Below are positions 2,131 to 63,263 of a stretch of DNA of 64,000 nucleotides, one piece after another. The notes beneath the pieces are model-generated. The model did not search any database and was not told the origin of the DNA. It saw only the letters and a list, made by a program, of their open reading frames with translations. The position numbers were made by a program, and so were the translations under genes. The stretch spans positions 20,165,001-20,229,000 of the forward strand of contig JALJCS010000010.1 in the NCBI GenBank assembly GCA_023055355.1, read 5' to 3'. Position 1 is the first letter of the stretch, and the number at the start of each line of letters is the position of its first letter. Source of the DNA: Agelaius tricolor. Lineage: Eukaryota > Chordata > Aves > Passeriformes > Icteridae.

Positions 2131-2149
2131 GTACTTTCTACTCCTGCTG

Positions 2150-8012: not shown

Positions 8013-11000
8013 GGAGGCCTGGCAATACACCATTTCCTGGGCCAGGAGAGCCTTCTGAACAGTCCTGCTTACTTCCTCCTGTCTTTATGAAGAAGCAATG
8101 CATCTTGGTGTGACCAGTGTCATGCCAACAGGGCAGGAATTACCGTGAACCCCTGCCCATAATTAGCACATGTAATTGCAGACACTCTCTAATTATCAGG
8201 ATCTCAGAGCTGGGTATGGCAGACTGCTTGACAATGCTTGCATTGCTCCTGCCTCAGACTGTTCACCCTCTTGCTCAGTGATGACTTCACCCCCGAGCCA
8301 GGCAGTGCCATGGGGCTGGGAGAGCCAGCCTGACCTGGCATGGCACACCACAGTCACAGCAGGGTGGTGGGAGCAGGCTGTGGACAGGGGGACAGCACAG
8401 GGGACACGCTGCCAGTGCAAATCCATCTTTCCTGCACAAATTGCAGCACGACCTGTTGCCCTGCCTTGCTGGGCAAGTGCTGAGCTGATGGGACATAATT
8501 AATACTTGCATCAATCTCAGCTGGATTTGCATAGTGCCCTCAGTCCCAGGCTGCTCAGGGAGGCAGGCTGCTCCCAGCCTTTCCCAGGGGCAGCAGCACC
8601 AGATGCTGGGCTGGCCCTGCCTCCTCTGCAGGAGTCACAGCCCCAGCATGGCCCCTGACTTGCCCCCACATGCACCCTAGCCCTCCTTGCACTGCAGGCC
8701 CCTTCCCTGCCCTGCTCCAGCCACTGGAGCATTGAAGACAGATGGAGATGCTTCTCTCTGCTGTGGTCTCTCCCTCACTCCTTGTGCTATGAAGAAATTG
8801 TGGAGACAGCAGCTTGGGAGTGAAGGACGCAGCAAGTTTTGGAGGGCAAAGGGATAAGGCTGAGCTGCAAACACCCCCAGGCAGCTGGGAGGGGCATGGC
8901 AGTGCCCACCTCTGCATGCCCAGATGGAGTTAAGGTCCTTGAGAGAAAGGCAGCATCCACAGACAGTGCCTCTTTCCTGGAATACTCAGTTCCCTCCTGC
9001 CCCGGTGCTGCTCCCATGGCCCAGGTGAATCCCCCCATCTCATCAGTGAAGGGGTCTGGGAGGAAGAAGATCCAGGGGAGAAAAGACCCTGGGGTGGTGG
9101 CAGGAACACCAAGATGCAGGCAGGGACCACAGCCCTCACCTTGCTGCCCTGTGGGTGCACAGGCGGGGGGGGGTAGAGGGACGGGGCAGTACAGGGATGT
9201 GCAGGGTGTCACTAACCCCAGAGATGACAGGCTGGTGACATATCCTCATGCAGCTGAGCACAGTGCCTCTGCATGGCTGCTGACACCACTGACAGCTGCT
9301 CCCAGCCCCGTGACACCGCAGGGACCACCACACTCCAGGCACAGCCGGACTATCGACGGATACAGAGCGAGACATGGGCACATCTCCAGCCCCTGGCCCT
9401 GCTCACAAGCTCTCTGCAGCCCCTGCCACCGATGTGTTCCACCCCTGCCTGGCCAGAGGACCCACAGCATCTGCAGCACCGGCATCACCTACAGCACCTG
9501 CTATCCAGCCCACCCTGCACACAGGGGACGTGGCCACTGATTGTGACTGTGTCCAGAGTGGGGTCACACTGATTGCAGCTGCCCAGATGAGTGCATCCAG
9601 CTCAATCAGAGCTGCACAGCCCTCCTGCATGCCGGGCACCAGGAATTAAACTGCTAATGAGCTGCTGGCTGGAGGGCCGGCAGTTAGTCATTAATCAGAG
9701 GCTCTATTCTGACAAGGCTGTGCCTCCTCTCCCTTCCTGCCCTGCACATCCAAGAGCAAGTGGCCAGCAGTGACCAGGGTGTCCCTCAGACCCTGCTCCC
9801 TGCCTGGCTCGGCTCCAACACAAAGAGGGGTCCCCAACCCCTGTGCCACTGGGACACAGTGCCTACAGGTCCTTCCAGCCACTGGCTTTCCTGTCCCCCA
9901 GCTCCTCCTCCACTCACCTCCCCCAAGCTGCCATCAGGTGAGAACCTTTTGTTCTGCTGGAAGAAAACCTGTTGAGCCCAGCTGAGCTCAGCTGATGCTC
10001 ATCATGTGCAGAGTGTGCTCAGGCTTCTGTCTGAGAGCCCAGAGATGAGCCAAGTGATCTGGAGAGCATCTGCAGAGGGGCTTCACCAGGGTGGCAGGGG
10101 AGGATCAGCCATGCAGCCAGTGATATCTCCTGGGGACAGAGCAGGCACATGCAGCAGCCCTGAGTCCCAGTGCACCAGGGTGGAGGTTCAGTCCCCTGAC
10201 CCAATCCAGCAGTGCCATTTTCCACCCTCACCTTCTGCCTTCTGCTGGCACAATGGTGGCATGGTGGGTGATGGAGCTGGCAGAGCCCTGCCTGTGCCTG
10301 GCACAGCACAGAGGGCATGGTGGGGGAAGGCTTTCAATGTGAGCAGGGGAGAGCCATTCACAGAACAGTGCAGGGAGCTGCAGGGAAGCTACTTGACCTT
10401 GAGCCTGCCTGCTCCCTGCTCGAACCCTTCATGGTCATGGCAGAGTCAGGACAGGGCAGGACATGGCAGAGGTGTCAGCACCCTCCTGTCCTCTCACCCT
10501 CCCTTGGCAGTGCCTGGGAGAAAAGGCCAGGAACTGGCAAGGAGCAGGTTAGAGATGCACGTTTTCCTCTATTGCACAATTAATCATGAGAAGTTTTTCC
10601 TCCTTTCATGCATGAAACAGAATTTGGCAGGGCACTCTGACCACAGGGACTGGCTGCATGCTCTCCAGTAAAAACCCAGCCACATCTGGCTAAGAAATAA
10701 CCTCAGAGCATCCCTGTGTGTGCAGGTGGAGAGAGACAATGCTAGGCCAGGCAGAAAAATCCAGTGGGGTTTGGTTTGCAGCCCCTCATGTAGTAAGCAC
10801 CTTCAGCTCCTGGTGTTTGTTCCCCCCTCCTCATCCCCCTGCACACACATGGCCATGTTGAGTTGTTGGTGCCTTCATCCCTGCCTGTAGGCCCTGTTAT
10901 TCCAGTCGTGGACATAAAAATACCCGGGCAGGGACATCCACCCTGTGGCAGCATCCCCTGTCTGAGCTCTCATCCCACCCTGTCTGCCTCCCCCTGCCCA

Positions 11001-11035
11001 CTCCATCCACTAGCCTGACTGGAGCCTCAGCCCAT
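8013..11035. other. No gene seen (presumed intron)
   Basis: GC-rich DNA without recognisable exons. Small AT-rich islands near 8150-8200, 8495-8530, 9640-9710 and 10555-10620 contain TAAT cores and could be short regulatory elements. A G8 run lies near 9165. Confidence 0.35.
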
Positions 11036-11405
11036 CCTTTCCCAGAGGGAAAGCGAGCTGAAGCCTCCCCAACAGCGTTCCAGTTATTTGTTATTGGAAA
11101 AAGGGGGAAATACGTTTTTCTACAATTATTGTTTTTTCCACCTGACTGGCTGCAAACTTGTTAATTTTTTTCTTTAATGTGTGAACAGTGTCGACGGCAG
11201 CTGCATGTCAAATGACTCTACGCCCTATCTGCGGGTCCCTGGCTGGCTTTCAGCACTCACACCGCAAACATTGCCTTCTATAAATAAAGGCCTATATCTC
11301 ATCAATGGCAGAACAGCAGAGCTTTATATAGTCGTCTTACATAAAACCGTCTCTCTTTATGGGCTTCAAACCATTTGCGTCACTTAGTGCAGCTCCGTAA
11401 ACCTC
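11036..11405. promoter_or_regulatory. Strong candidate conserved noncoding element
   Basis: About 370 bp of complex AT-rich sequence contrasting sharply with its flanks. It contains a MEF2-like CTATAAATAA (11278-11287), a CAGCTG E-box near 11200, TGTCAAATGAC, several TTAAT cores and a second AT-rich motif GCTTTATATAG. No frame extends through it, so it is not an exon. It is one of the best enhancer candidates here, on composition alone. Confidence 0.42.
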
Positions 11406-12848
11406 CTTCCCCAGACACTCCCTCATGGAGGGAGACCCGGCACGGCTGCCCCATGCCCCAGGGAGGAGCTGGGATCCCCTCTCTGCCTGGGGCTGTCCCC
11501 CGGTGCCTTTGCAGGGCCAGGTGGCAGCTGGGTCCTTGTTCCCCTACCCCACAGCCTTGGCATGTGCCTCCCTCCAGCCCGCCCAGCCTTGGCACCAAGT
11601 GCCAGGATGGCAGCCGGCACTGCCAGGCACTCCAGAGCTTGGGGATGGTTGGCCAAGGGCCAACATCACTCACTGTGCCCTTGTGACCTTGTCCCTGACA
11701 CCTGTCCTCGGGCAGCACAGTCATGGATGCTGGGAGGTGCTGTTCTGTCCTCTGTCACTTGGGAATCAGGGACCTGAGGGCGCAGGGTGACTGGGGACAC
11801 GGTGCCAGGCTGGGGGGACAGACCAGCTCACAGCAGCTCTAACTCTGACATGCAGAGAGCACAAGTCTGGCCATGGCTTTCAACCCAACTGCCCAGTGAG
11901 CGTCTGTAGTGCAGGATCCTGGGGGCTGCCCCCATGGCCACAGGTCCCAGCCCCAGGCTCCTGCAGTCCCCAGGGCCCCTGGCTCCATATGGCAGAGCCT
12001 TCCCTCCGGCTCGCCCGCAGGCACCCGCCTGCCCGCGGCGATGGATCGTGGGGGGGTGATGAGGGGGGCGGGGGTGCAGAGACTCCTACTGGGGCTGCAG
12101 CAATGCCGGCCTGCAGGAGGCAGCCCACACCCCTTCTGGGACTCCAGGAGCTGGGGGGGGCACGGGGGGGGGGGGGGGGGGGGGGAGGTGACAGAGCTGC
12201 AGAGACCGTGGTGACAAGCCTTCCTTTACCTCCATGACATCCCAGCTGACTACCCCAGGGGGCTGGAGCCAGAAGGAGACAGGGATCTAACAGCATAATG
12301 GCACTGGAGCCTGTGGTGCACTCTGACCCATGGCTGTCCCCAGTGCTGTCCATGGAACCCCTGCCACAGCTGGCACTGGCATAAAGGATGGGGCCACAGC
12401 AATGCCCTTCAGCAGTGGGGCCACATGGCATCCAACCATGCCACTGGCACAGGGCACCTGCACCCCAGCCAGCCCTGCCCCATGCCCAGCCAGCCATGCA
12501 GCACCCCATGAACCCCCCTGCCCCATCTGCCACCCTGCCCCCTGTCAGCCCTACTGCCCTGTGTTCCCACTGCCCCATGGTCCCACTGTGGCCCCAGGCA
12601 CCAGCCAGCACCAGCTCCTGGAGCCAATCCCCTCTGCTATCTTGTCCCCATTCCTCTCGCAGCCATCCGAGGTGCCCAGCCCCCTCTGCAGCCAGCAGTG
12701 CCCCACAGTCACCCCACGGGTGCCCTGGCCCCAGGGGGCAGCACTGTCCCCCTCCATTCAGCCTGGCACGTGGGCCCAGCCTCACGGCACGTCCCACATC
12801 CCTGGGGAGACACACCAGGCGCGGGCGTCCTGGCCGCTGGCTCCCCCC
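11406..12848. other. No gene seen; G-rich tract inside
   Basis: GC-rich intronic-looking DNA. The open frames here (up to 311 codons, minus strand) are low-complexity and cross the poly-G tract, so they are not treated as genes. Confidence 0.4.
12164..12185. repeat. Homopolymer G tract, 22 bp
   Basis: An uninterrupted run of 22 G on the plus strand follows a shorter G8 run. Such tracts are unstable, and their length in an assembly is often approximate. Confidence 0.9.
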
Positions 12849-12990
12849 GTATCAGAGACAGGCTTATTAAGTGTGTGATATTAAATTACCCAGATAAGAG
12901 CATAAGAGCTTTTAAAGTCAATTCATTAAATATAATTATGAAGAGAGCTTTTTTATGCTCACGGTGATCCGATCTCAATCAGGGAGACGG
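12849..12990. promoter_or_regulatory. Candidate conserved noncoding element
   Basis: AT-rich island with AGATAAGAG (GATA core), several TTAAA/TTAAAT homeodomain cores and an ATAATTATGA palindrome-like site, set between GC-rich flanks. It has no coding potential. Confidence 0.35.
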
Positions 12991-13985
12991 TGGGAAAGCC
13001 GTCGGCTCCTCCAGCATCTCTGCTCCCCCGCTGCGTCGCCTCCGCACCCCCCTGCTCCCCCGCCTCGCCCCCCTCCTGCAGGGAGCTGGCACCCACCACC
13101 ATGGCCCTTGATGCCTACCCCACTGCCCTGGCACCCTCTCTGCAGTGCTGCTGCTGGTGTCAGTGCCACCCCACTTGGATGGAGGTGGCATGGGGGTCCG
13201 CTTAGCAAAGGAAGGGGAAGGGGAGGCAATGGGTGTGAGATGGTGGGGGCAGTGGCAGTGGGGTAGAGGGCAGCAGGGTGTGGAGATGCTCAAGCACAAG
13301 AGGCAGGGGGCTGGGAGCCCCGTATAGGTTCTTCCCAGCCATGGATCCCCTTGTCCCCATGATCCAGCCCCCTTGCTGTCCCCTGCAGACCAGCCTCCTC
13401 AGACACCTCATGATGCATCACTCCTCAGGCAGGAGGGGTGCATGCTTGCCTCCCATCCCACATTCATTAATGGCACTTTGTGACCAATTAGTATCTTCCA
13501 ACCAGGTGGAACCTGTCCTGACCCATGGCCAGATCCCTCATGTGCATGCCAGGCCTTTGCACCAGGCACCCCTCTTGCTCCATGCACCCCCAGCCATAGC
13601 CCATGGTGCAGATGCACTTGGGGCTGTTCCCAGATTTATTGGGGGAATCCATGAGGAAGCAGTGGTCTCAAAGATACCTCATGACCCCCACACCAATAAC
13701 GTCTTCCCAGCCATCTGAAAGAGAGTCAGATTGCCAAAACGCCTGCTTGTCCCCTAGTCACCCCACCCCACTGTCATGAGGGACTTTGCAGCGACACCCC
13801 TAGGTGCAGCCAACCCCTTGTTCTCCTACCACAGTGTCCCAAAATCCCATTATCCCCAAATCCACACACTTGCACCTGGGACAAGGAGCAGCAGCATGGC
13901 TGGCAGGGAGCAAGGTGGGCTCCACACTGGGGTCCCTGCAGAAGGCTTCGGTGGGGGCTGGTGGGAGCAGCTACCCGCTGCTGGG
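12991..13985. other. No gene seen (presumed intron)
   Basis: GC-rich DNA with no exon recognised. A short patch at about 13440-13505 has TTCATTAATGG and CCAATTAG cores. Confidence 0.35.
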
Positions 13986-14130
13986 AGCTGCTGGACTGAC
14001 ATTTATTTTTAGACGTGAATTGTATAAATTAGCATTTCTCAGCGGATTAAGCAGCAGGAATTGTGTAAAATTAAATGGCAACGAATTGCATTAAAGTCCC
14101 CCGTTTTCTGGCACAAACAGCGCCTCGAGC
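13986..14130. promoter_or_regulatory. Candidate conserved noncoding element
   Basis: A 145-bp AT-rich island with repeated homeodomain-type cores (AAATTAGC, GGATTAAGC, AAATTAAATGG, GCATTAAAG). The shift back to GC-rich sequence at its right side is abrupt. No frame is maintained. Confidence 0.35.
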
Positions 14131-15780
14131 CGTGCCCAGGCGGCTCATGTGTAACAGCGCCGGAGATGGCGCTGCGCTGCTCCGGACAGAGCACGGCCAA
14201 CCTGCGACGCGTCTGCACTGCCCGGGACACAGGGCTGGAAAGGCACAAGCACAGTGGCCAGACTGCGAGGATGGAGGGCTCCAGATGGGCTGTGAGCCCC
14301 TGAGTAGCTGGCTAAGGCGCTGGGCTGGGACCGCAGGACGTGGATGCAGTGAGTGGAATGCTGTAACCCAGATGGGCACAGATGGGCTCAGTTGAGCAGC
14401 TCGCGGGCATGGGATCAGTGAGGGATGCTCCAGCCTCTCCTGGGCACTGACACCACCAGCCCCAGCCCAGCCAGTCCCTGCCAGGCATGGCAGGACACCC
14501 ATCACAGTCACGGCCATGTCACTCTCCAAAGGAGGTGATGCTGTGCTGGGACCCCAAGAGCCACTCTGTGCCCCAGCCAGGGCAGGTTCTGCAGTACCTG
14601 GAGCCCACTGAGCAGCTGAGGGAGGCCCAGCCCTGCACAGGAGTACAGGGAAAATGGAGTGGTTGAATGCCAGGGGCTGAGCAGGCACCAGGCAGGGCAG
14701 GGCAGGTGAAAAACAATCAGTCCATCTCTTTTACCCAGTAAAAATAGGTTGAAAATGTGACATTTATTAAGTACGATTCTGGTGGAAAGGTCAGAGAGTT
14801 CCCATGTCAGGAACAGTGGGAGAGCCTTGCTGGGAGGAGGCGACAGCCTGCTGCCCCCGCCCACCCCCTGAACCAGGATCTCCTGTGTGCATGTGGAATG
14901 CAACTGAGGATGTTGCCCGTCTCAGCACAGGGCTTCCCCCTCTGGGGTCGGCACGGGGTGCTGGGGAGATCCCTCTCACAGCCCAAATCCCGGGCAGGTA
15001 GGAGGCCTAGCATGGAGAGCCGGGGCCGCTGCCAGCTCCGAGAGGCACTGCCAGCTCTCAGCAACCTCCCTGCTCCCCCCCAGCTTCCAGCCCCGGCACA
15101 ACTGGCTTCGGCAGCCACACATCACAAACAAAAGGCTTTTGACAACGAATGAGGTTTTGAGAAAGGCACTGGGCTCCTTCCCGGCCGCGAGAGCGGAGGC
15201 TCCTGCTGCAGCCACTGCCGGCAAACAGGCGGGATGCTGCTGCCAGCTGAGGGGGGCCCCTCCATGCGCTTCTTCCCACAGCCCCCAAACTCCTGCACAC
15301 CCCATCTGGCTGTACCCCCATCTCCAGAGCACTGTCAGGAAGGCTCCCCCTTGCCTCAGTGCCACCTGACATGGCCAGAACTGGCCTCGGGTTGTGGCTG
15401 TACCGGGGTGCCAGGCAGGGAGCTTAGGGGGATGCAAGCCACCCGCAGCAGCTCAGCCCCAGCCCTGTGGGGACACTTCCCAGCCTCCTGCTGAATGGCA
15501 TGTATAGAGCACCACGGATTTCCTGCACCAGCACCCTCAGCTCTGCAGCTGCACTGCCCAGCCAGGAGTGCTCCCCACCAAGGCACCCATCGGACAGCCC
15601 AGTGTTAGCGGGCACTGGGCAGTGCCCCGAGCACTGCAGGGCCTGGGGGGCTGTGCAGCATGGTGGGCACAGCTCAGTGGGTCAGAAGAGGCTCTGCCAA
15701 GGCTCCAGCATGGCCCTCTAGCAGCCAGCACGGGGGCACATTTGTCAGCAGGGCTGCAGGGAGCCTTGCTGCGGCTCAGG
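14131..15780. other. No gene seen (presumed intron)
   Basis: GC-rich DNA. Overlapping open frames on both strands, including one of 205 codons on the minus strand at 14071-14688, show no family motifs. The ACATTTATTAAGTACG patch near 14758 is AT-rich but short. Confidence 0.4.
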
Positions 15781-15985
15781 GTTGTCCCCGCCGCTGGGGA
15801 GATTTACAGCCCAGCCGGGCTTTATTACATGGAAGATGCTTACGCTGGGGATTTTTTTTTTTCCCGATAGTTTCTTAATTTGCTGTCCCATAAAGAATGT
15901 GGATTTGTGACGTTGAATAGGGGAAGATCATTTAGCACTCACGGCTCTTACTTAAAGGATCCGCACAAGTTATTTATTGCGTGAG
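15781..15985. promoter_or_regulatory. Candidate conserved noncoding element
   Basis: AT-rich island with a T10 run, TTTCTTAATTTGC, a CRE-like TGTGACGTTG near 15907 and TTATTTATTGCG. It is unique, non-repetitive sequence in a GC-rich intron. Confidence 0.35.
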
Positions 15986-17779
15986 CACGGGCTGCAAGCA
16001 GCAGTGCAAGGGGACAGGCTCCAGCCCTGGCACTGCTCCTGCTCCTGGACAGGCAGTCGGCGGCAGCCCCACAGCTTGGCCACTCTCATGCTGAAAAACT
16101 TCCAGCCTCTGGACAAAGTCCACCTCGTGCCCAGAGGGAAGGAAAGACTCCAGCGCTCCTGCAAGCATGGCTGCAGGGAAAGCTCCTTCCCTTCTCCAGT
16201 GTCACTGGGGGACAGTCTCTGCTACAGAGGCTGCTCACTGTGGGCTCAGTGCCCTGGGACCCCAAGCCATTTGCCCTACTGGGATGTGCTGCAGTCTGGG
16301 AGCCCCCCATCACTGCTAGGACATGCTGTGACTCACACACTCGCCCACAGCAGAGCAGGCACAAAAGCTTTCTGAACATGAAGGCTCACATGGGGACCCA
16401 GAAATGGGACCAACAAAGCTTGGAGCTCCCCACCACATAAGCAGCCTTCACTGGGGCCACAGCTACGAGGCACAGGAGTACCCAAGCCCACACAGCACAG
16501 CTGGGACTCAACCCGCCTGCCAAGAAGCCTGTGTTGTGTTTCAGTCATTCCCAGGAGGCACAAGGGACCGATTTGGCTTAGGGAATGGGAGTAGAAGGTT
16601 CCAGCTGCAAATGGTGTGATGCCTTGACAGGTCCCACTGCTGCATGGAAGGGCTCTGGGACATGTTATGTGGCAGAGAGTTGTATCACATCTTCACCATC
16701 CCTCCCCACACTCATCTCTGCAGCCTCTCCTGCCCCAGGTTCACCCCTTTGCTGCAGGCAAGTAAGAGGCGACAGGTACGCCCCTTTCTGCTGACAGCCC
16801 CTGATACCTCAAAGGCCAGAAATGTAGAGCTGTGGACAGGGTGGGTGGAGGGTTTAGGAGCCCTATGCTCCCCTTCTTTGGGCATAAGCCCATGGGTCGG
16901 CTGGCACTAGCCATTCTTACACCTGAAACCTGCTCCAGTGCAGAGTGCCAGCACACCAGAGCCTGGCTGCCTGGGCATCCCCAGGGCATTCTCATAAGCA
17001 GATGAGGTAGGCAGGCCAGCTGGTCCTGCACAGCCACATGCTGAGAAACTGGGTCCCAGTGACTGTCCTGGTGGTCACCCTTCACTGCCACACAGCACAG
17101 CACATGTCACACACTCTGTCCACGCTGTGGGAAACCTGCACCGCTCCATCCACCTGAGCTCTGCCCTGCCAACATCACAGTGCGGCTCAGCACACACCAA
17201 ATCCCATTGCTACGCTGTGCCTCTGCCCAGCACAAGGCTGGGCTCGCTGCCTCCCCCGCAAACCAAGGCTGTGCAGGATCCTCCAGGAGGATCCCAGGGC
17301 TGGAGTCAGCATGGCCAAGCCACGTGCAGGACGGTCCAGCACCAGAGCTTCCTGCTCCAAACCCTGCTGAACCACACTGCTCCCTGGCAAACTCCAGCAG
17401 CTGGCGTAGAGCAGGCACAGAGCCCAGCAAATCCCCAGGAGGAGGAGTGGGGCTGCCCGCCTGCTGTCCCCCGCTCCTTCTTCCCACTCCACTGCAGTGT
17501 CCCCTGCCACCACCAACCCCCCGCACAGGGAGCCCCCCCTGCAAAGTCTCTTTCCCAGGGACAGCATCACTCTGCACATTGAGCAGGCTTTGTACCGATG
17601 GGCACGAAGTGAAACGGAACATGCTGCATCAGCCATTTTCAGCCCCACGGAGCCTCCTCTCTTCCCCAGTATCCTGCACAGCCCATGGCATCACACCCCA
17701 CTCCCCGGCACGAGCGGGGTTCGGCTGGCAGCGCCGCTCCTGAGAAGGCGGGAGCCAGCTGAGCAGTAGCCCCTGGCAG
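15986..17779. other. No gene seen (presumed intron)
   Basis: GC-rich DNA with no recognisable exon. Long overlapping frames at 17107-17743 on both strands have no family resemblance. Confidence 0.4.
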
Positions 17780-17915
17780 CCGTAGGAGAGAGGCGGCTCA
17801 TTTCCAGAGTCATTAAGGTCTGAAAAGGGTCCCATCAGGTATTCCGCCCGTTCAGCACATTTATTTTCCCAAACCACAGCGGGGATTTATGATTCCAGGC
17901 TCAATATTGGTGAGA
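17780..17915. promoter_or_regulatory. Candidate conserved noncoding element
   Basis: AT-rich island about 700 bp downstream of the ASIC4 first-exon donor. It contains TCATTAAGG, ACATTTATTTTCC and GGGATTTATGATT. Its position near the start of the intron is common for promoter-linked enhancers. Confidence 0.33.
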
Positions 17916-18604
17916 GCCGCACACTGGCGGCGGTCGGCCAGGGGCTCTGTGCCTGGGCAGACTGGGCGCTGCTTGGAAGAGGCCGTGCTGCCAGTCCCGG
18001 GCAGTGAGTGGCAGCCCCGGGCAGCCCCCGCTCGCCCGGCTGTAGCCGTGCCTCCAGAGCGGAGCGGCTCGGCATTTGTGCTCGGCATGTGCACACGTGC
18101 GTGTGCAATGCCTGCAGTCCCCACATTTACACACATCCCAGTGCTAATCCCACAAATGCAGGAGGGTTCCCCTGCGTACAAAGGGTCTCTGCCTGCCCCC
18201 CTGTTCCAGCCCCTCTCGCTGAGTGAAGCATCCCGTGTCAGGGCACTTCGATCCGGGGGAAGAGCAGGCTGGAGCAGGACTCTGTGCCACAGCTTTCCCC
18301 CTGGCCGCCGCACACCCACCCTGGGGACCGCTGGACCCTGCTGCTCACCCACCGCGGCTCCTGCCCGTGAGCCCCTCAGTCACAGACCTGCGACAGCCCA
18401 GTCCTGTGGCGCAGAGCCCTGCTGAGAGCTCCCACGGAGGATCCTCTCCCTCTCTCCCTGTGAAACTTGGAGGGAAACTCAAATAGAGAGAGCTGCAAAC
18501 TTCAGCAGCCGGAGTGAGCCAGGGAGCCCTGCTCCGGTGCGACGCGATCGGGTGGGTGCCCCCCGTGCCGGTAGGGGCCCCTAGGGAAGCTGAGCCAGGT
18601 GTGC
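17916..18604. other. Start of ASIC4 intron 1, CpG-rich
   Basis: GC- and CpG-rich sequence directly following, in minus direction, the ASIC4 first-exon donor. It probably belongs to the promoter-proximal CpG island. No exon is seen. Confidence 0.4.
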
Positions 18605-18610
18605 ACTCAC

Positions 18611-19186
18611 CACAGTGAAATCGCGGGATGAGCAGTTCTCGCCGCTGAAGTTGCAGCTCTTGAGCATGTCGTCGAGTTGGTGGCCGGTGCGGTTGACAAT
18701 GTCAGCCATGTCGGGGTCAGGGTAGAGCAAGTCCGTGGCCTTGTGACCATCCCGGTCCTTGGGAGGCAGCCCGGTCATGTTGGCCAAGTGAAAGATGTCG
18801 GCGTCGGTGAGTGCCGAGTGGCGGTAGCGGTTGATGTTGCAGATGGTGATGGCCGGGAACACCATCTCACGGATGGCCTCCTCGTCCAGGGCCATGACGT
18901 GGGGGTGCTCCAGGTAGAGCAGCGCCGACTTGGCCGCCTGGTAGAGGAAGAAGGCGAGGGAGGCCAGGAAGGCAAATGCCCAGAGGGTCTGGCGCACGCC
19001 CAGCCGTCCCGACCGGCAGATGTGTCCCAAGCCGTGCAGCGTGCTGGTGCTGGCAAAGGTGGCCAGATCCCGGGAGCGGGGCCGGGCAGGCTCCTCGATC
19101 AGGCTCTCCTTGTCCCCTTCTTCTTTCTCCTTCTGCTTCTCATCCTCTTCAGCAAATTTGATTTTACACACGATCTCAATCGGCAT
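18611..19186 (-). CDS. ASIC4: ASIC4 first coding exon (proximal, ASIC1b-like N-terminus)
   Basis: This encodes the N-terminal third of acid-sensing ion channel 4, a trimeric DEG/ENaC-family membrane protein of neurons. Mammalian ASIC4 has little proton-gated activity alone and is thought to modulate other ASICs. The exon gives 192 codons. It starts MPIEIVCKIKFAEED, nearly identical to the human ASIC4 start as remembered. The His-Gly gating motif is H51-G52 within STLHGLGHI, the first membrane segment spans about 66-91, and FPAITICNIN (110-119) opens the extracellular palm. N-glycosylation sequons are at N136, N165 and N179. The start is the first in-frame ATG; an in-frame GTG lies 18 codons upstream. 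The exon ends in phase 0 at a perfect GTGAGT donor (18610-18605). Later exons, with pore and second membrane segment, are not in the window. Confidence 0.96.
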
Positions 19187-19499
19187 CTGCCCCGTGCAGC
19201 TGGTGTGCCCAGCCAGCGAGCTGCCCCCTGGCACAGGCACCGGCCGAGAGCCCGGCCAGGCGCTGGGAGGGGGTTCGGGTCCCCCCCAAGCCCCAGCACG
19301 GCACCGGGAGGGCCGAGCCGTCTCGGGAGGGAAGCGCAGCCCCTCTCAGCAGCTCCGAGCCGCCGCTTCCCTCTTGTCTCACTAGTCGATCGTCTCCTTG
19401 TGCCTTCGCTTATCAGCACAAATACAGCTGTCAAAAACCCCTCTCTCTCCTCTCCCTCGCTCTGTCTCTCTGCCTCTCTCCTTCGCTCCTCTCTGGTTA

Positions 19500-19625
19500 A
19501 GACCCCAGCAGATACAGGCAGCATTTAGGCATCATGTGCTAATAAAATCCAGGGAATACTTAATAATTCAAGACATGTCAACATTATTTCATCGTCAAAT
19601 AAAGAGCAAGCGTCAGAGAAAAGAG
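19500..19625. promoter_or_regulatory. AT-rich element inside the ASIC4 CpG island
   Basis: About 125 bp rich in TAAT and TTAATAATTC cores and containing CATCATGTGCTAATAAAATCC. It lies about 315-440 bp upstream of the ASIC4 start codon, between two CpG-rich blocks. The contrast with its surroundings suggests a constrained promoter element. Confidence 0.35.
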
Positions 19626-19738
19626 GCAGTGTGAAGGGCCCGGCGCCTCCGGGGCAGGGAGCCACGCTGCGCCCTCTCCCCAGCTCCGGCCCCGAAGTGC
19701 TGCCGGAGCCACTTGTTTGAATGGCTCGGGAGCCGCCG

Positions 19739-19860
19739 GAGCCGAGCCGTGCCGAGCGGAACCGAGCCGTGCCGCGCCGTGCGATGCCGAGTCGTTCGTG
19801 CCGCGCCGCGCCGTGCGATGCCGAGCCGTGCCGAGCCGTGCCGTGGCGGGCGGGGCACGA
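19739..19860. repeat. Pentamer repeat (GCCGT/GCCGA/GCCGC) in the ASIC4 promoter
   Basis: About 120 bp of imperfect 5-bp periodicity on the plus strand, with GCCGA, GCCGT and GCCGC alternating. A longer duplicated phrase, GTGCGATGCCGAG, occurs twice. The repeat is CpG-dense. Confidence 0.75.
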
Positions 19861-20400
19861 AGCCTGTCCCCCGCCGTCGCCGCTGCCGCCGCGCTCTCCG
19901 CCTGGCCCCGCCGTGCCCCGCCGGCCCGTGCGCCCCGGGGCAGAGCGCGGCGCGGCTCGGCGGGGGCGGGCAGCCTGCGGGCAGCTCGCCCGGCGGCCCC
20001 CTCCTGCTCGCCCGCCTGCGGACTCCTCCTGCCTCGGCGGCTCCCTGGCCGTTAACCGCCTCCCTGCCGCGGCCCGCCGCGACCCACGGCGGCCAGCGCC
20101 GAGTCACGGCCGTCCCGACCCCGGCCCCGGCTGTCCCGGCGGGATCCGGCCGGCGAGACGCCCCCGGAGCGGGGCTGAACACGGGGCGCCAGGGGTGCAC
20201 TTTGCCGTGCCTCCCCCCGGCCCCGCCGTGTTCCTCGGTGCCCCGGAGCCAGGAGAGCGGCAGTATCGCCTCCCGCGCCCTGTGTCCGCCGCCCCCCTCT
20301 TCACCGCGCTCGCTGTGCACCCGGGATGGGCTCATCCGGCTTAATTTCTGCCCCCTTCCCTCCCTCCCTCCCTCGGTGCTCCTCATTGTTCTACGGCAGC

Positions 20401-21740
20401 GCACAAGTGGGGGGCACCACAGGCAGGGACCAACTCTGCTAGAAAGGCTGAGCCGGGGTAGCGCTCACCCTGTCCTGCCCTGCCGAGCCCTTGCTCCTCT
20501 CGGGGTCTGCTCCCTCCAGGGCACGCTGCCGTCGACCCTCGCACAGCCCCATCAGCACCCAGCCCCCGAGGCAGCATTGCCCTGCACGCAGCGTGACAAG
20601 CAGGGTGTCCTCCTGCCCCGTCCTGTCCTGCCCGTGGCAGTGGGGCTCTCCTAGCCTGGCTCGGTCATGAGGTGATGGGTTCAACCTTGAGGCACCAACC
20701 ACATGGCACCTGGGTCTGTCTCTTCCCAATGCACAGCATCTCTGACAGCAAGTTTTAATCTCTCCCAGTTTCCTGCCTTGGTTTCACCAGCTGGGGACGG
20801 AGGGTTTGCTGAACCAACCCACTCACTCACAAGTCAAGCAACCCTCCGTGACACTGCCTTGTGGCACAGTGGTGGGGGAAACACCATCTCCCTGTCCCCA
20901 GAGCAAGCCCAGCACTGGGTACCCCCCCCAGCAGACAGGGCTCTGCTGAGAAGGTGCGTGCCTGGCAGGGAATCCAGGGTCTCCGGAGGACAAGTGATGA
21001 GACAGCCGCCCAGGAGCGCGACAGAGGCCTCGCCTCTCCTCGGGGACTGCGCCGCAGGTCAGCGTGACCTTCACTGTGCTGCCAATGCCAACGGCAAAGC
21101 TTTCCCCAGCCGTCCGGCAAGCGCACATGCATCTTCAATCTTCCCATCGATCTGTGCATGGCACACATGTTTCTGCCTCTCTGTGGGTCAATACAGCATG
21201 ATAGGCTGCCTCCGGCAAGGAGCACGCACAGCCCCAGCCGCCTGTTTTCCCTGCCCAGGGGATGCAGCATGCACGTGCCAGCCCTGCACCTCCAGCTCCG
21301 AAGGACGTGGTAGGAGCAGGCTGGGCAGGTGGCCCAAGCTCTGCTGCCACCACAGGTGCCCCAGCCACACAGCCACCAGGGCCCAGATGCTTCCACAGGG
21401 ACCCTTGGCTCCCTGGGGGATGCTTGGCCCAGCCGGGACCATAGGCGGAAACAGCCTGATCCTGTGGAAGGAGTTTCCATGGAGTGAGCAATGGCCAGCC
21501 CTGAGTCTTTGGTCTGCAGAGCTGGATGTGTAGTCCCTGCCTGCACCTCTCAGATGCTGTGGTGGCAAGGGACATGAGGGCATGGAGGGTCTGCCAGGCA
21601 GGTCACCCCATAAGCACAGACCCTGAGGTACAGGGCAAACTGAGCTGTGTGAGTGTGGGACCAGCTGGAGCCCAGTGTCCTGTGTGCTGGACAGTCATGG
21701 CACAGGAGCAGGACTGTCCCTTGGCTCCCCCCAGGACCCT
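20401..21740. other. No gene seen (between the two ASIC first exons)
   Basis: No ASIC-type downstream exon or other coding block was recognised on either strand. Long frames at 20.7-21.58 kb on both strands overlap each other and lack motifs. Confidence 0.4.
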
Positions 21741-22017
21741 GTCCCCCATACCAAGGGGATCACACACCCCTGCTTTCTCTGTCCCCATACCAGGGGGATC
21801 ACACACCCCTGCTTTCTCTGTCCCCCATACCAGGGGGATCACATCCCCCTGCTTTCTCTGTCCCCATACCAGGGGGATCACACACCCCTGCTTTCTCTGT
21901 CCCCCATACTAGGGGGATCACATCCCCCTGCTTTCTCTGTCCCCATACCAGGGGGATCACATCCCCCTGCTTTCTCTGTTCCCCATACCAAGGGGATGAC
22001 ATCCCCCTGCTTTCTCT
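21741..22017. repeat. Minisatellite, seven 39/40-bp units
   Basis: Seven tandem copies of a unit resembling GTCCCCATACCAGGGGGATC followed by ACACACCCCTGCTTTCTCT. Unit lengths alternate exactly 40, 39, 40, 39, 40, 39, 40 bp (277 bp in total), which implies a 79-bp higher-order unit. Frames through it on both strands are repeat artefacts. Confidence 0.92.
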
Positions 22018-22970
22018 GGGCGTCTTCAACTCCATCATTAACTGCCACCTGGACTAGGGACATGTTTCAGCACCATCCTCACAGCATGATCCCCTCCTGA
22101 GTGGCCAAAGAGGTAAGTCCTCTCCCATCTCCTTTCCTGGCTCTCCTCTCCTGTTGTACTCTACTCCTGCCTGCCCACCCAGCAAGGGCAAAGGGGTGTT
22201 GGGGACTCATCTCCTTGCAGGATTACCCAAGGCTAGAGTGCAGCCAGGGTGGGTTGGGATCAAGCTGTGCCCCAGTGAGTGGCACCCATAGCACAAGCCC
22301 CATGCCCAGCTGCAGCTGCAGGCCTTTTACAAGCCATGGAGAGGGGAGGACTATGGATTCACAGCCAGGGAGCTCTGGGAGAGAGACCATGCTGGGAGAG
22401 ACAGTGGGACGGAGGTGCAGGGAGTGGGGAAGCAGCATGGCTTGGGAAGCCAGGCAGTAGGGCTTAGGGACTGCTTTCTACCCAGACAAGGCAAAGAACA
22501 AAGCATGAGCTAGGAATGGCTGGTGCTGTCTGCAGTGTGTCAGTGTTGCTGACACGTCTGCAGGTCCCCAAGGTTCCACACCGGAGCCTCTCACCTGTGG
22601 CTGAGTGCCTGCACATGGAGGCATGAGGCCACATGGGGGGACTCTGTGGTGTGTAGTGGGGCTCATCTGCCCCTTCACCTGGCCACATGCAGCTACAGAG
22701 TCTGTTCACCCCCTGATGCTCCCTCATCCACTCCTTGGATAGGATGCTAACAGTCAGGAGAAACACAATGCCCTGGGCTCCTGTGCTGACTTCACCAGCC
22801 ACTGTGCAAGCCAACACGATGGGAGAGCCAGCCAAGGGCTTGCCAGCAGACTGGGAGAGTGGAGTCTCTCCTGGTTACCCCTGTGCCCCCCAGCCAGGGG
22901 AATGCTGATCGTCAGGGACTTGGCACAGGGCCCATGTACTCCACTCAGATGATGGGGGGAGGCTGCGGGT
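22018..22970. other. No gene seen
   Basis: No exon or recognisable repeat was found between the minisatellite and the LINE relic. Confidence 0.35.
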
Positions 22971-39310: not shown

Positions 39311-42004
39311 CAAAGGAGATTTATGAGGGTTTGGGGCTGTCGGTTGCACGTGCAGCCCTTATTGGTCGCTGCCTGATGGGGTTCCAGCACTCACAGCATC
39401 ACCAGCTCCCCCTCCCCAGGAGCAGGGATACACACAGTGAAACAGCATAGCAGTGGCAAGAAAAATGTCCCAGAATCTAAGTCCTGGTTGTTAGGCTGTC
39501 AAGAGTGACAGACCCTTTGCCTGCCCCAGCTCTAAGCCCGCTGGCAGATCTGGCAGGCAAGGCACAGTCCTGGCTATAGCTGGATGTGGTACCTGATGCC
39601 CAGGATGTCCCTGGGAACTCCAGCTAACCTAGAGAAGAGCAGCCAGTTCCAGCCTGCTGGGGATGATGCTGGAGCAGTTTCCCATGGGCTGGGGGGACTT
39701 TAGGTCTGTGGAGGGAAGAGCCATGCGGGGAGCAGGTGGTGGTGTGCAGGGTGTGCAGAGCCATTCGCCTGCAGGACCATTTCAGTCCCAGCTACATCAA
39801 GCCCACAGATTCATGGGCCCTGGGAGGTGACAGGAAACCTGATAGGTTTTAAGACAGCAACATGCCCTGAATCTGCAAGGTGCCTGAGCAGGCGAGGCAG
39901 GGAATCCAAAATGTTTACAGCCTCAAGGGACTGCGGAGCAGTGAAGGCAGGCTGGGCTGCCTGGGATGAGATTTCCATGCTGGGGACAGACTGCTGCCAT
40001 CCCTAATGTGCTGTTGGAAATCTCTCCCTCCGCATGGGCATCCCCTCAGCAGCTCTGCGGAACTGGTACCTGATGTGAGACCAGGGGAGACTCAGGGCAG
40101 CCCACTGCCCCTGAGCTGAACCCTCTCCTGTGGCAAAGCCCCAGCATGGGGGCTCTCCTGGATTGCAGAGGTCTTTCACAGTGATTCTAGAGAGGGGTCT
40201 TTAGTGCTTTCTGCCCCAAAGCCCCTCACACCTGCCTGTGGGTGAGGACCAGCCTGTACTTGTTTCTTCTCGCTGATTACTTGGCACAGTCGGGCAGCCA
40301 TGCCCCAGTGCTCAGGCAGGGAGACCAGGGCTGCCCTCCACCAGCCCTCTCCTGCAGGATGCTCTTACAGAGATGCAGCGCTGGGCTCTGTGCTGCAGAC
40401 CAGCCCCATGTCTGGCTGCAGCCTCAAGCTGGAATATCTCAAGGGACCTACAGCATATCCCTGTATTGAGGGACACACAGTGGTCCAGAGCCCGTGGCAG
40501 GGCAGGCAGCCTTTCCAGCTCCTCCAGCAGCAAAGAGGCAAGTGGTGCACAAAGCTCAGGCCAGCCCAGAACCCCGGGTGGCTCCATTTCCTGTTCTGCC
40601 TGAGCCTCCCCTAGCTCCCACTCTAAGAGTGGCAGAGCTCTCCAACTGCCCCAGATCTGCCAGAGAACAGCCAAGGGCCAGGGCAGAGACATGAGGTAGA
40701 GCAGACACAGCCTGCATGCAGGGATGACATGTACACCTACACCTTGCAAGTCTTACACTATAAAACAGAGACCACAGAGGTCTCAGAGGACTTTAGGAAA
40801 TCTCTGCAAGTTGCCTGGGCCAGTAGGGACCAGCTTTCAGAGGTGATGGATGTAAGGAGAAGGCAGTTTCCAGCCCTTGCCTGGCCCTGTGCTTGGTCAG
40901 GCTCCCAGGTGGGCATGGGTGGCAGCTGCTGCATCCCAGCATATCCCTGCACAGGAATGAAGAAGGATGGGTGGAGGACCATGCCTCTGGGGCTGTGAGC
41001 TTCATCCCCACAATGGCACACAGTTCCTGATGGTGGCCCTCTCCAGCCCACCTCCAGCCCTACAGCTGCCCCATCCACAGCAAACAGTGCCAGCCCTGGT
41101 GATGCACAGCCCATGGGAAAGTGGGCACTGTGTTACAGCTCCAGCTCTTAGCAGAAGCGTATGTTCCCATAAAATATCTACATTTGGATGCAGAGATTTT
41201 CAGGGATTGGAGAACGCTGTGCTGATAATTAAACATCTGCTCTGCATTTGTCTGTCTTCCTGCCACAATGTCGCTCCAGCCCTCATTCCCCCCTCCCTGT
41301 CCTCTGGCAATCAGTCTGGACAGCATTCCCTGCTCAGTGCTCTGTCCTGGCCCTGAGCCACAGCATCCTGGGCCATGGGTGCTGGAAGAGAGATGGCAGC
41401 TCTGGGCACCCTCGGAGCAAACAGCAGCTTCACTGCCAGCACCCACAGTCTTTGAGAGGCTGCAGAGCCAACAGCCTCTCTGTGGCTTGCACCAGCCCAA
41501 ACAGTTCCTCTGAGCCCCACCAAGCATTGCCAGCCAGTGCTTGTCCGTGCACAGTTCCCCTGGGCAGAGCAGGCAGCTGCCACTGCCATGCTGCAACAGG
41601 AGAGCATCAAAACAAGTTCCAAATTGATCCCAGAGACTCTCCTGCAAGCCCCAGTCATGTCCTGCTAGGAGCAAGCGTCTGCTCTAGTTACTGTCTCCTA
41701 GGAGAGCACCGAGGCCTTCAGGCTGTCACAGGAGGAGCAGACCCAAACATGACATCTCCATGGAGCCCAGGCTATGGCAGGCAGGGCCACAGCACCACTG
41801 AGCAGATGGCACCAGGACCTGGATCGATGGGAGCTGGCTGGGGCCCAGGGGGGCTCTACCAGCTCCTACAAGGTTGGGCTGGTGGTGGGATGAGCTCAGG
41901 AAAGGGCTGGGTTCCTTTCCTAGCTGTGGTACCTGACCCCAGCCTCTGGCCAAATGCCCAGCAGGGCTGAGCTGGGGCAGCTGTCCCTGCCCACACTGCT
42001 GGCC
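39311..42004. other. No gene seen
   Basis: Unique DNA of mixed composition with no exon recognised. The 204-240-codon frames at 41.06-41.97 kb overlap on opposite strands and lack motifs. Confidence 0.35.
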
Positions 42005-42507
42005 CTGAGAGCTGCATCCTGCCTGCTCTGAGAGCTGCATCCTGCCTGCTCTGAGAGCTGCATCCTGCCTGCCCTGAGAGCTGCACTCCCTGCCTGCCCT
42101 GAGAGCTGCGCTCCCTGCCTGCCCTGAGAGCTGCATCCTGCCTGCCCTGAGAGCTGCACTCCCTGCCTGCCCTGAGAGCTGCACTCCCTGCCTGCCCTGA
42201 GAGCTGCGCTCCCTGCCTGCTCTGAGAGCTGCATCCTGCCTGCCCTGAGAGCTGCATCCTGCCTGCCCTGAGAGCTGCGCTCCCTGCCTGCCCTGAGAGC
42301 TGCGCTCCCTGCCTGCCCTGAGAGCTGCATCCTGCCTGCCCTGAGAGCTGCATCCTGCCTGCCCTGAGAGCTGCACTCCCTGCCTGCCCTGAGAGCTGCA
42401 TCCTGCCTGCCCTGAGAGCTGCACTCCCTGCCTGCCCTGAGAGCTGCATCCTGCCTGCCCTGAGAGCTGCATCCTGCCTGCCCTGAGAGCTGCACTCCCT
42501 GCCTGAC
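42005..42507. repeat. Minisatellite, 21 units of 23 or 25 bp
   Basis: Twenty-one tandem units start CTGAGAGCTGC. Eleven are 23 bp (continuing ATCCTGCCTGCC) and ten are 25 bp (continuing ACTCCCTGCCTGCC or the GCTCCC variant), giving exactly 503 bp. The two lengths are interspersed irregularly. All three minus-strand frames stay open through the array (267, 279 and 297 codons), producing Gln-Ala-Gly/Ala-Leu-Arg repeats that are not proteins. Confidence 0.95.
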
Positions 42508-43990: not shown

Positions 43991-44067
43991 AGCGCTCGGC
44001 GCAGGCAGGCAGAAGCCTCCAGTGGCCAGCGGGTGCCTCCGCTCGCCATCCGTCACCCACACTCCTG

Positions 44068-44243
44068 GGACATCCAACCTGGCACTCCCACCTGGGGCAC
44101 CTGGGACATCCAACCCTGGCACTCCCACCTGGCACATCCAACCCTGGCACTCCCACCTGGGGCACCTGGGACATCCAACCCTGGCACTCCCACCTGGCAC
44201 ATCCAACCCTGGCACTCCCACCTGGCACCTGGGACATCCCTGC
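44068..44243. repeat. Minisatellite, CATCCAACCCTGGCACTCCC units
   Basis: Five to six tandem units built on CATCCAACCCTGGCACTCCC plus ACCTGG. Alternate units carry an extra GGCACCTGGGA insert, giving a composite repeat of roughly 64 bp. Confidence 0.85.
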
Positions 44244-53897: not shown

Positions 53898-53903
53898 ACT
53901 CAC

Positions 53904-54557
53904 TGTCTGGAAGTCGCTGCTGTTGCAGTCCTCCTTGGCGAACGTGCAGCGGACAAGCATCTCGCCCAGCTCCAGCTGGTGGCTCGCACGCTCATAAAGC
54001 TCCTCCAGGTGGAAGGGACGGCTCTTCTCCTCCCCACCTACGGCCAGCATCCCCAGCAGAGCCTCCAGCCTGCTCCTCTCAGGGCTCTCTGGCACCAGGG
54101 GCCGGCCAGCGCTATCCAGGAGCCCCAGCATCTCCCCTGCCCAGTACAGGTCGTGGCTGGAGAGCTGCGAGAAGCGGGCAGGGTTGAGGTTGCAGATGGT
54201 AACGGCGGGGAAGATCTTGTTGTGCTCCGTCTCCTCCTCCAGCTGGGTGCTGTGGGGGTACTGGAAGTACAAGCCCACACACTTGGCATAGGCATGAATC
54301 AGGAGGGCCAGCGAGCCCAGGAAGGCCAGCAGCCACAGCAAGTTGCGGACGGTGTAGCGCCGGTGCCGGAAGATGTGATGGATGCCGTGGAGGGTGGAAC
54401 GGCTGGCAAACTCCTCCAGGCTGCACGGGGGCTGCCGTGGGGCTGGGGCACTGCGTGCTGGCTGCTTGTCAGGGCAGTCCCCTGCAGCAAGGGCTGCAGA
54501 GGGCCAGGGGTGACCGCAGGTGCGTGGGGGAGGCCGCTGAGCCTCCTCCAGCCACAT
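53904..54557 (-). CDS. Distal ASIC first coding exon (ASIC1a/2a-like N-terminus)
   Basis: This encodes the N-terminal third of a DEG/ENaC acid-sensing channel subunit, 218 codons. A Pro/Ala-rich cytoplasmic tail of about 48 residues is followed by FASRSTLHGIHHIF with the His-Gly gating motif (H57-G58). The first membrane segment is at about 72-98, then FPAVTICNLN (116-125), SSHDLYWAGEMLGLL (133-147) and a sequon at N212. Layout and wording match ASIC1a and ASIC2a more than ASIC4. The start is the first in-frame ATG, with A at -3; an upstream in-frame GTG is ignored. The exon ends in phase 0 at a perfect GTGAGT donor (53903-53898), so DFQT would join an exon starting V(Y/F)TRYGK. It is read as either a distal alternative first exon of ASIC4, preferred because no ASIC exons were recognised in the 34.7 kb before the ASIC4 exon, or the start of a tandem or relic paralogue. 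Confidence 0.9.
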
Positions 54558-54760
54558 GCTGCCGGCCGGCTCTGCCTCTCCGCGCTGAGACCAAGGTGCC
54601 GGACCAGGTTCCAGGGGTGGGGGACCGTCCCAGCCCCGGGCGGTGCGGCTGTGATGCGCAGCAGAGCTGGGGCGGGACTGTGCCGCCCGCACCGTGCCCC
54701 GAGCGGGAAGCTCGCCGAGTGCCGAGATCACAGATGTACTTAGCGATCACCACATCCTGC
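54558..54760 (-). promoter_or_regulatory. 5'UTR and promoter region of the distal ASIC exon
   Basis: GC-rich sequence upstream of the ATG with a GC-box (GGGGCGGGAC on the plus strand near 54669), a CpG-rich stretch and no TATA box. The transcription start is not determinable. The region between it and the RACGAP1-like gene may carry shared regulatory DNA, since the two genes are divergent. Confidence 0.45.
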
Positions 54761-55964
54761 AGGAACTGCAGCCAGAGGCTGAAACATCCTGCAAAGCCCA
54801 GGGCACTCTCACTTCCTGTCCCCCGGGGTTGTGGGCAATTACTTGGAGTCCTGCTCACTTCCACCCTCTCCGTGCACTTAGTGCGGGTTCCCCGGGGAAG
54901 GGGGAGACAGGCAAATTCCTCATTTTCCCCTGCCAGGACATGTAGATGCCACCTGGGCAGGGCTGCATGGCCCTGGGCTCAGGAGAGATGCCTGGCCAGG
55001 CTTGTGTTGGGGATCAGCCTGTCTTGGGGCATGGAGATGTGGGAGAACCCCAAGGTCTGCACCAGTGTTGCAGAAGCACAGCTCTGAAGAACAGCTCATG
55101 GGGCTGGCCAAGGAGTCAAGATGTCAGTTGTCACTCTTGCCACAGCTCCTGTGCCCTTGGACTCAAACACCTCCTCTGGGATCCCCAAAAGCTGAAAGGG
55201 CCCAGGCTGCCACAAGCACAGGCAAGAGAGAGGGGTGGCAGAGCACATGGGAGCAGTGACACAGACCTCAGGGGAGTGCCAGGTGCTGGCACCACCTGCA
55301 CGCCACCACAGGGATGGTGCCAGGATCTCTACTATGGTGGTACCTCAAGGCCAGGACGTCTCACACAGTGGAGGGCCCAGCAGCACTCAGCATCCCTCAC
55401 CTCCACAGTGCACAGGAAGATGCAAAATCTTTTATGAGGCCAGTGTTGAAGCTGAAAGAAACAGTTGCTTGTGAGTGCTGAGAAGCCTTGTGTACCCAAA
55501 AGCTTGTGTCCCTTTCTGAACAATCTCAATTGCTCTAGTAAAAGATGCTGCTTTCTCTTACTGGGCTCACCATTCAGGACCTGTCTGAGCAGATTCCCCA
55601 GCCCCAGTTTGCTGTCAGGGAGCAGAGCAGAGGCCCAGAGCAGAGCTGTGTCTGTGAGGCCAGGGAGGGCACACCAGCTGGGACAGCAGGCTGCGCTCTC
55701 CAGCTTCCCAGGAGAGCTGATGGGGAAATCAGAGGTAAGGATGCTCAGGCACAGGGAAGAGGTGTTTCCCAGGCCCAGTGGGGCTGGAGGGGAGCAGGAG
55801 GACTGGGCTCTCTCCTGCAGATGTTTGGCCCTGCTGGGCACCCACAGAGCCTCAGAGTGCAGCAAAAGGCACTGCAAGACTCTGGCGGTATCTGTAGCCA
55901 CGGGCTGGCGACACTGGCCCTGCCCAACTGTGCTCCCCTGGCCTGGGCTCCCCAGCACAGCTTT
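54761..55964. other. No gene seen (intergenic)
   Basis: Unique DNA between the divergent ASIC and RACGAP1-like genes. Frames of 146-208 codons overlap on both strands and lack motifs. Confidence 0.35.
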
Positions 55965-62365: not shown

Positions 62366-62450
62366 ATGCTGCGGCAGCGTTGCGGGCGGCTCCTGGCCCG
62401 GCTGGAGCGGGGGCTGCAGCTCCTGGAGCTCGGCGGCAGCGTGGAGGAAG
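62366..62450 (+). CDS. RACGAP1-like gene, coding exon 1
   Basis: This starts a paralogue of RACGAP1 (MgcRacGAP/CYK-4). RACGAP1 is the GTPase-activating subunit of centralspindlin, which binds the kinesin KIF23 and recruits ECT2 to the spindle midzone for cytokinesis. The exon encodes residues 1-28 plus one base (phase 1): MLRQRCGRLLARLERGLQLL and an acidic end. It aligns with human MLNVRNLFEQLVRRVEIL as remembered. The ATG has G at -3, and the donor is GTGGGT at 62451. In the family this segment begins the N-terminal KIF23-binding region. The gene is divergent from the ASIC locus, 7.8 kb from the distal ASIC start. The C1 and RhoGAP domains should lie beyond the right edge. Confidence 0.85.
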
Positions 62451-62568
62451 GTGGGTGCGTGTAACCCTTCGGCCCGGGGCACACCGGCACCCTCGTCTCT
62501 GGGGTGGTCTGGGGAAGCTGGGGGCTGGCCTCCCGTCCCGGCTGACCACCCGCTGCTGATGTGCTCAG

Positions 62569-62771
62569 ACTGCATCCGGATCGCTCGGTGCTTCGAGGCG
62601 ACGCGCCAGAGATGCTGCCGGCTGGAGCAGGATGGGCGTCGTGCCCGCGAGCAGCTGGCCCGTGTGGAGGCCGAGCGGGCAGCGCTGGAGGTGAAGCTCA
62701 AGCACGCCCGAAACCAAGTGGAGGTGGAGATGAAGAAGCGGCACCGGGCAGAGGCTGAGCTGGAGAAGCAG
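62569..62771 (+). CDS. RACGAP1-like gene, coding exon 2 (coiled coil)
   Basis: Residues 29-96, after a GTGCTCAG acceptor. It encodes the coiled coil with the family signature LKHARNQV (72-79), followed by EVEMKKRHRAEAELEKQ. Human RACGAP1 has the same LKHARNQV plus a RAEA-type segment in the same order, which makes the assignment secure. The donor is CAG|GTCGGG, an unusual +3 C. The exon ends in phase 0. Confidence 0.93.
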
Positions 62772-62854
62772 GTCGGGGGCTGGCCGCAGGGGTACCCTGT
62801 GGGGCTGGCTGTGGGGCCCTCAGCCTGCTCACCACCCCCCCGTTTCACTTGCAG

Positions 62855-62991
62855 GAGCGAAAACTTCAGCTGGTCCTCGAGTTGCTGATGCGGGAACCAT
62901 GGGGCAACGAGGCACTGAGCAGGGAGCAGTGCTCTGTTCTCAGTGCCCTGGCCGGCCGGCGCCTTGGGGCAGCCTTGGCACCCAGCAGGAG
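62855..62991 (+). CDS. RACGAP1-like gene, coding exon 3
   Basis: Residues 97-141 plus two bases (phase 2), after a polypyrimidine tract and a TTGCAG acceptor. ERKLQLVLELLM continues the coiled coil (human ERQIQLIREMLM). LSREQCSVLSAL matches the human LSEEQKSALAFL segment. The donor is AG|GTGAGC at 62992. Confidence 0.92.
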
Positions 62992-63184
62992 GTGAGCAGG
63001 TCCTCACCCCAACCCGTCGGGCAGCCCTGGGGTCAGCTGTGCCCCTCTGCCCCCTCATCACTGCTGGGCTTGAGGGGCTGGCTGGGCAAGGAGGTGCCTG
63101 GGCTCTGCAGAGGCATCAGCTGTGGGCTCCCAGGAGTAGGTGCTGGCTGAGGGGGGAATTGCTCCAGCTGAACTCACTCTGCAG

Positions 63185-63263
63185 GTCATCTGCAGTGGAC
63201 GAGTCGTGCCAGTCCCTCCTGTCCCACTCGGATATCAGCTATGACCGCACTGAGGATGACGTG
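63185..63263 (+). CDS. RACGAP1-like gene, coding exon 4
   Basis: Starts after a CTCTGCAG acceptor, completes Arg142 and runs to residue 168. It reads SSAVDESCQSLLSHSDISYD, then RTEDDV, matching human [23 protein letters not shown]. In the human protein this Ser/Asp-rich stretch lies in the region phosphorylated by PLK1 to bind ECT2; the Ser and acidic residues are kept. The donor is GTG|GTAAGA, phase 0. Confidence 0.92.

Follow-up and report, generated by a model that had tools for sequence, protein, structure and literature searches.

A candidate a-type, distal first exon of ASIC4 in the songbird Agelaius tricolor

Results

The window analyzed here is a 64,000-nucleotide stretch of the Agelaius tricolor genome (assembly GCA_023055355.1, contig JALJCS010000010.1, positions 20,165,001 to 20,229,000 of the forward strand) and contains no N. 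It holds the conventional first exon of ASIC4 and, upstream of it on the same strand across a gap of 34.7 kb, a second exon of the ASIC family. Facing these exons in head-to-head orientation is the 5' end of a RACGAP1-like gene. The features are as follows.

18501..20500, no strand assigned: CpG island covering ASIC4 exon 1 together with its 5' flank, from CpG content
18605..18610, minus strand: donor GTGAGT of ASIC4 exon 1, phase 0
18611..19186, minus strand: usual first exon of ASIC4, 192 codons (MPIEIVCKIKF...DFTV), located by tblastn with a hand-entered human ASIC4 sequence (E 6e-80)
53898..53903, minus strand: 5' splice donor GTGAGT of the distal exon, phase 0, after DFQT
53904..54557, minus strand: distal first exon, apparently a type, 218 codons from ATG to donor, with residues 43-217 matching the ASIC N-terminal third
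54558..54745, minus strand: CpG-rich 5' flank of the distal exon, putative distal promoter or 5' UTR (20 CpG, observed/expected 0.82)
62366..63263, plus strand: 5' end of the RACGAP1-like gene, found by tblastn, its start placed by eye
62574-62768, near 62855-62992 and 63183-63263, plus strand: coil exon, next exon and weak third piece of the RACGAP1-like gene

Minisatellites are present between the two first exons at 21739-22018 (40/79-bp units), 42002-42505 (about 21 copies of a unit of about 23 bp, which also shows up in 48- and 96-bp units) and 44064-44239 (28/65-bp units). Rfam at gathering thresholds and a tRNA scan gave no matches.

The distal exon and its donor

Read on the minus strand from 54557 to 53904, the distal exon is free of stops and frameshifts. 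Its residues 50-217 matched the Pfam ASC family (E 1.6e-25; 90.5 bits against a gathering score of 23.6), and its best match among solved structures was an ASIC1 chain (E 7.9e-39, residues 43-217), which together exclude a chance resemblance. The letters of that chain agree, by eye, with what we take to be the sequence of human ASIC1a. In the alignment, the distal exon has a hydrophobic first segment as well as the LHG and FPAVTICNLN motifs, and it keeps the equivalents of C93, C172 and C179 and the histidine equivalent to H73, while the D78 position is E. The Pfam score above gathering, the HG and FPAVT(I/L)CN motifs and the cysteine equivalents place it in the N-terminal third of the ASIC / DEG-ENaC family; the ENaC and degenerin models of NCBIfam scored below their cut-offs for both ASIC exons. 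A first-pass annotation had described a complete ASIC N-terminus with these motifs and a first membrane segment, and the reading frame, the Pfam match and the ASIC1 match bear this out. The second membrane segment with the selectivity filter belongs to later exons, none of which was found in the 64-kb window. The predicted structure of the distal exon alone had a mean pLDDT of 45.8 and was left out of the argument. The first 42 codons (54432-54557, minus strand) are proline-rich.

The two ASIC exons end alike: the distal exon reads ACA/GTGAGT after DFQT, and ASIC4 exon 1 reads GTG/GTGAGT after DFTV. Both donors are in phase 0 and share the same alignment end, and hence the same protein position, so that the perfect, position-matched donor claimed in the first-pass annotation was recovered. 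V(F/Y)TRYGK, which we take to be the start of ASIC exon 2, would follow directly after this end in both cases. Since the distal exon could be transcribed independently of ASIC4, and since its frame continues beyond the donor to a stop near 53832, it might instead belong to a short separate transcript that ends in the 35 kb intron and encodes a truncated ASIC fragment with one membrane span, which could dampen other ASICs. The full GTGAGT donor at the family's exon 1/2 position argues against such a transcript, and we consider it very improbable.

Search for further ASIC exons

Human ASIC1a and human ASIC4, both entered by hand, were used as tblastn queries in six frames over the whole 64 kb. 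ASIC1a matched strongly at two places in the window, with E 1e-37 and 2e-30, and these are the two first exons; among the best 30 matches of ASIC4 the strong ones likewise fell at these two exons only. For residues past the exon 1/2 junction, the best E in the 64-kb window was 0.70 with ASIC1a, and 1.2 was the lowest value among the best 30 matches with ASIC4; both are at chance level. As a positive control, hand-entered human ASIC4 residues 194-539 were planted as 10 pieces of 18-52 residues each, with borders of our choosing, in a block-shuffled copy of the window, which was then searched with ASIC1a. Six of the 10 pieces were recovered at E < 1e-3 and two at 0.08-0.14, while two were missed; the best false match had E 0.012. 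With this recovery, a whole tandem ASIC gene would have shown in the tblastn search, and a single small exon could escape it. This search, with its planted control, rejects a separate tandem gene with its own exons 2-10. The full set of exons 2-10 sought between 19.2 and 53.9 kb was not found, in keeping with the earlier claim that no ASIC exon lies between the two first exons. In viral contigs, two stretches fit a pattern, and neither encodes a relative.

The same two queries found no ASIC4 exon 2 in positions 1-18610. ASIC4 intron 1 thus appears to be longer than 18.6 kb, with its acceptor beyond the left edge of the window, and the next ASIC body on the minus strand would presumably be that of ASIC4.

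Coding signature and CpG content

The homologous core of the distal exon has GC contents of 0.63/0.41/0.87 at codon positions 1/2/3, similar to those of ASIC4 exon 1 (0.59/0.40/0.84), whereas the two flanks are flat. The GC3-GC2 contrast of this 528-bp core was reached by only 4 of 18,136 sliding windows of 528 bp on both strands, and all 4 fall on the two ASIC exons, the distal exon's own included. The first 42 codons (GC 0.79/0.71/0.64) lack the coding pattern of the core, suggesting that the extreme N-terminus may be weakly constrained or that the translation start may be uncertain.

Over the distal exon the CpG observed/expected ratio is 0.45, and in the adjoining 500-bp windows on both sides it is 0.05-0.19. 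Immediately upstream it is 0.82 in 54558-54745 (188 bp, the upstream end picked by eye), 0.68 in 54558-54700 and 0.33 in 54558-55300 (743 bp). Windows outside known islands and exons have a median of 0.15, and 21 of 1248 such windows reach 0.82. The 5' island of ASIC4 is far larger than this distal patch, with an observed/expected ratio of 0.88 over 1.3 kb. Methylated DNA loses CpG quickly, so the patch points to constraint or to a promoter free of methylation, and speaks against a long-dead relic.

The lower CpG content of the distal exon compared to the ASIC4 island, and the absence of a coding pattern from its first 42 codons, would nevertheless fit a dead relic, left over from an alternative first exon of ancient origin. 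Set against this are the 218 codons without stop or frameshift, the retained structural residues, the core GC3 of 0.87 against a GC2 of 0.41, and the survival of CpG where the flanks have lost it. We regard a relic as highly unlikely; judged by these features, the distal exon looks functional.

Relationship to other ASIC first exons

The distal exon was 43% identical to ASIC1a, 43% to ASIC2a and 41% to the window's ASIC4 exon, and 38% to ASIC1b, 38% to ASIC3, 35% to ASIC2b and 34% to human ASIC4 in the alignment; the references for identities and trees were entered by hand, with the exception of chicken ASIC1. In a tree without the long ASIC2b row (8 rows, 185/239 columns), the distal exon grouped with ASIC1a and ASIC2a at 94/96, unstarred. 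When ASIC2b was included (9 rows, 187/254 columns), ASIC1a, ASIC2a, ASIC2b and the distal exon were separated from ASIC1b, ASIC3 and ASIC4 at 86/94, again unstarred. ASIC3 switches sides between the two trees, and the grouping of ASIC4 with ASIC1b is weak in them (69/70 and 75/72). A tree that unites the distal exon with the ASIC4 exon of the window is 6.5 log units worse, and the test does not reject it (p-AU 0.148). The "ASIC1a-type" label of the first-pass annotation thus has moderate support from the trees: both groupings favor it, but neither carries the program's star and the clade with the ASIC4 exon stands unrejected. The conventional ASIC4 exon in the window begins MPIEIVC, and rat ASIC1b presumably begins MPIQIFC. 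With this likeness and the tree grouping, the usual ASIC4 exon has the look of a b-type exon and the distal one that of an a-type exon.

A rival origin for the distal exon is as the orphaned first exon of a tandem ASIC gene that lost its exons 2-10 in the fairly recent past, so that the first exon has not yet decayed. Its nearly equal distance from the window's ASIC4 exon and from ASIC1a is paralog-like, the unrejected clade with ASIC4's own exon would fit, and stray small remnants could escape a search in which 4 of 10 planted pieces were not clearly recovered. However, the 34.7 kb gave no match above chance to exons 2-10 in a search that recovers most planted pieces, and the distal exon still has an intact reading frame and donor as well as its codon pattern and CpG content. 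We consider this origin unlikely, if less so than the short transcript or the relic.

The RACGAP1-like neighbor

The coil of the RACGAP1-like gene is 49% identical over 65 residues to a hand-entered human RACGAP1 sequence. The first two pieces have a joint E of 4e-16, and the third alone has E 1.1; AG and GT splice dinucleotides fit the exons by eye. A PDB search with the coil returned one weak match, another coiled coil (E 0.066), and no RACGAP1 chain, so the name comes from the match to the hand-entered human sequence alone. NCBIfam gave one chance match for the coil. The gene is perhaps a divergent paralog, judging from its sequence, and to our knowledge such a divergent RACGAP1-like paralog is absent from mammals.

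Discussion

The intact ASC frame, the matched donor, the lack of any tblastn match to exons 2-10 of its own, the codon signature, the CpG patch and the retained residues are best explained if the distal exon is an alternative, distal first exon of ASIC4, which we consider probable. The first-pass annotation had reached the same preferred reading, an ASIC4 isoform with a distal promoter, and it gains support from the frame, coding signature, CpG patch and donor. A putative distal promoter near 54.6-54.8 kb would start a transcript whose 218-codon first exon would be joined, over a distance of more than 53 kb that takes in the proximal promoter and exon 1, to ASIC4 exon 2, outside the window on its left side. 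The resulting a-type ASIC4 would have a changed cytoplasmic N-terminus, first membrane segment and early extracellular domain, and would share the remainder with ordinary ASIC4. From the sequence we infer promoter activity, the splice to ASIC4 exon 2 and the channel behavior of this isoform, and likewise the step from a splice-capable exon to an isoform that is actually made.

Two properties of ASIC4 lie in the part of the protein that would be exchanged. In one study, the cytoplasmic N-terminus of heterologously expressed ASIC4 was necessary for its location in early endosomes, ASIC4 lacking 18 N-terminal residues stayed in the ER, and ASIC4 carrying the N-terminus of ASIC2a showed a reticular pattern (PMC4678866). 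According to a review, the ASIC4 of chicken, frog and coelacanth is proton-responsive, in contrast to that of rat; the difference is tied to the 24 residues that follow the first membrane segment, H73 included, and also to a one-residue insertion in mammals (PMC6790391, citing Lynagh et al.). Both exons in the window have the H73 equivalent. The a-type ASIC4 would lack the N-terminus that targets ASIC4 to early endosomes and would retain the H73-type histidine tied to the proton response. We therefore infer, conditional on its being made, a subunit that responds to protons, is trafficked differently and has an expression pattern of its own. The chimera with the ASIC2a N-terminus indicates that retention of an a-type ASIC4 homomer in the ER is also possible.

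Among the matches listed by a literature search, no title or opening of an abstract describes an alternative first exon of ASIC4. A survey of zebra finch ion channels reports each of the five mammalian ASIC genes, ASIC4 among them, in both zebra finch and chicken, and a lower expression of ASIC4 in Area X; the excerpts consulted do not mention an alternative ASIC4 exon (PMC6679542). Such an isoform may well be among the predictions of automatic genome annotation. ASIC4 is poorly understood, and the exon that would be swapped codes for both the N-terminus, which bears on cell location, and the strand after the membrane segment, which bears on the proton response. A natural a-type form would offer a direct route to ask what ASIC4 does outside endosomes, and probes or antibodies designed from the known first exon would fail to report some of the ASIC4 output.

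ASIC1-4 are located in HOX paralogons, and we take human RACGAP1 and ASIC1 to be head-to-head neighbors on 12q13; a literature search on RACGAP1-ASIC1 synteny found nothing. If both placements are right, the order RACGAP1 - exon a - exon b - body would have existed before the two genome duplications. We tentatively propose, as a scenario whose chances we put slightly below even, that the single ancestral vertebrate ASIC gene had a distal a and a proximal b first exon beside a divergent RACGAP1 before these duplications, and that ASIC4 has kept both exons here and b only in mammals. The a/b pair may accordingly predate the separation of the vertebrate ASIC genes from one another. If so, the two-start design of ASIC1 would be ancestral and not an invention of ASIC1, and this lineage would have an unrecognized a-type ASIC4 channel.

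Comparison with known ASIC genes

We know of no a-type exon in mammalian ASIC4. The conventional first exon in the window is 69% identical to the hand-entered human ASIC4, which has one extra residue before FPAV that both window exons lack.

The a and b variants of ASIC1, and those of ASIC2, differ by their first exon. In ASIC1a / ASIC1b, as here, there are two N-terminal thirds, of which one is, or here appears to be, a type and the other begins MPI(Q/E)I(F/V)C, and a RACGAP1 neighbor presumably lies head to head there as it does in the window. Unlike in ASIC1, the shared body here would be that of ASIC4, and identity between the distal exon and ASIC1a is only 43%. The excerpts of the literature examined do not say in which order exons 1a and 1b of ASIC1 lie. 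ASIC2a / ASIC2b also have alternative N-terminal thirds, and the distal exon is as near to ASIC2a as to ASIC1a. ASIC2b, in its hand-entered sequence, has S at the H73 position, whereas the distal exon keeps the histidine. ASIC1 is described as giving two splice variants, a and b, and ASIC2 likewise (PMC4678866; PMC6790391), and ASIC2b alone as not proton-gated (PMC6790391).
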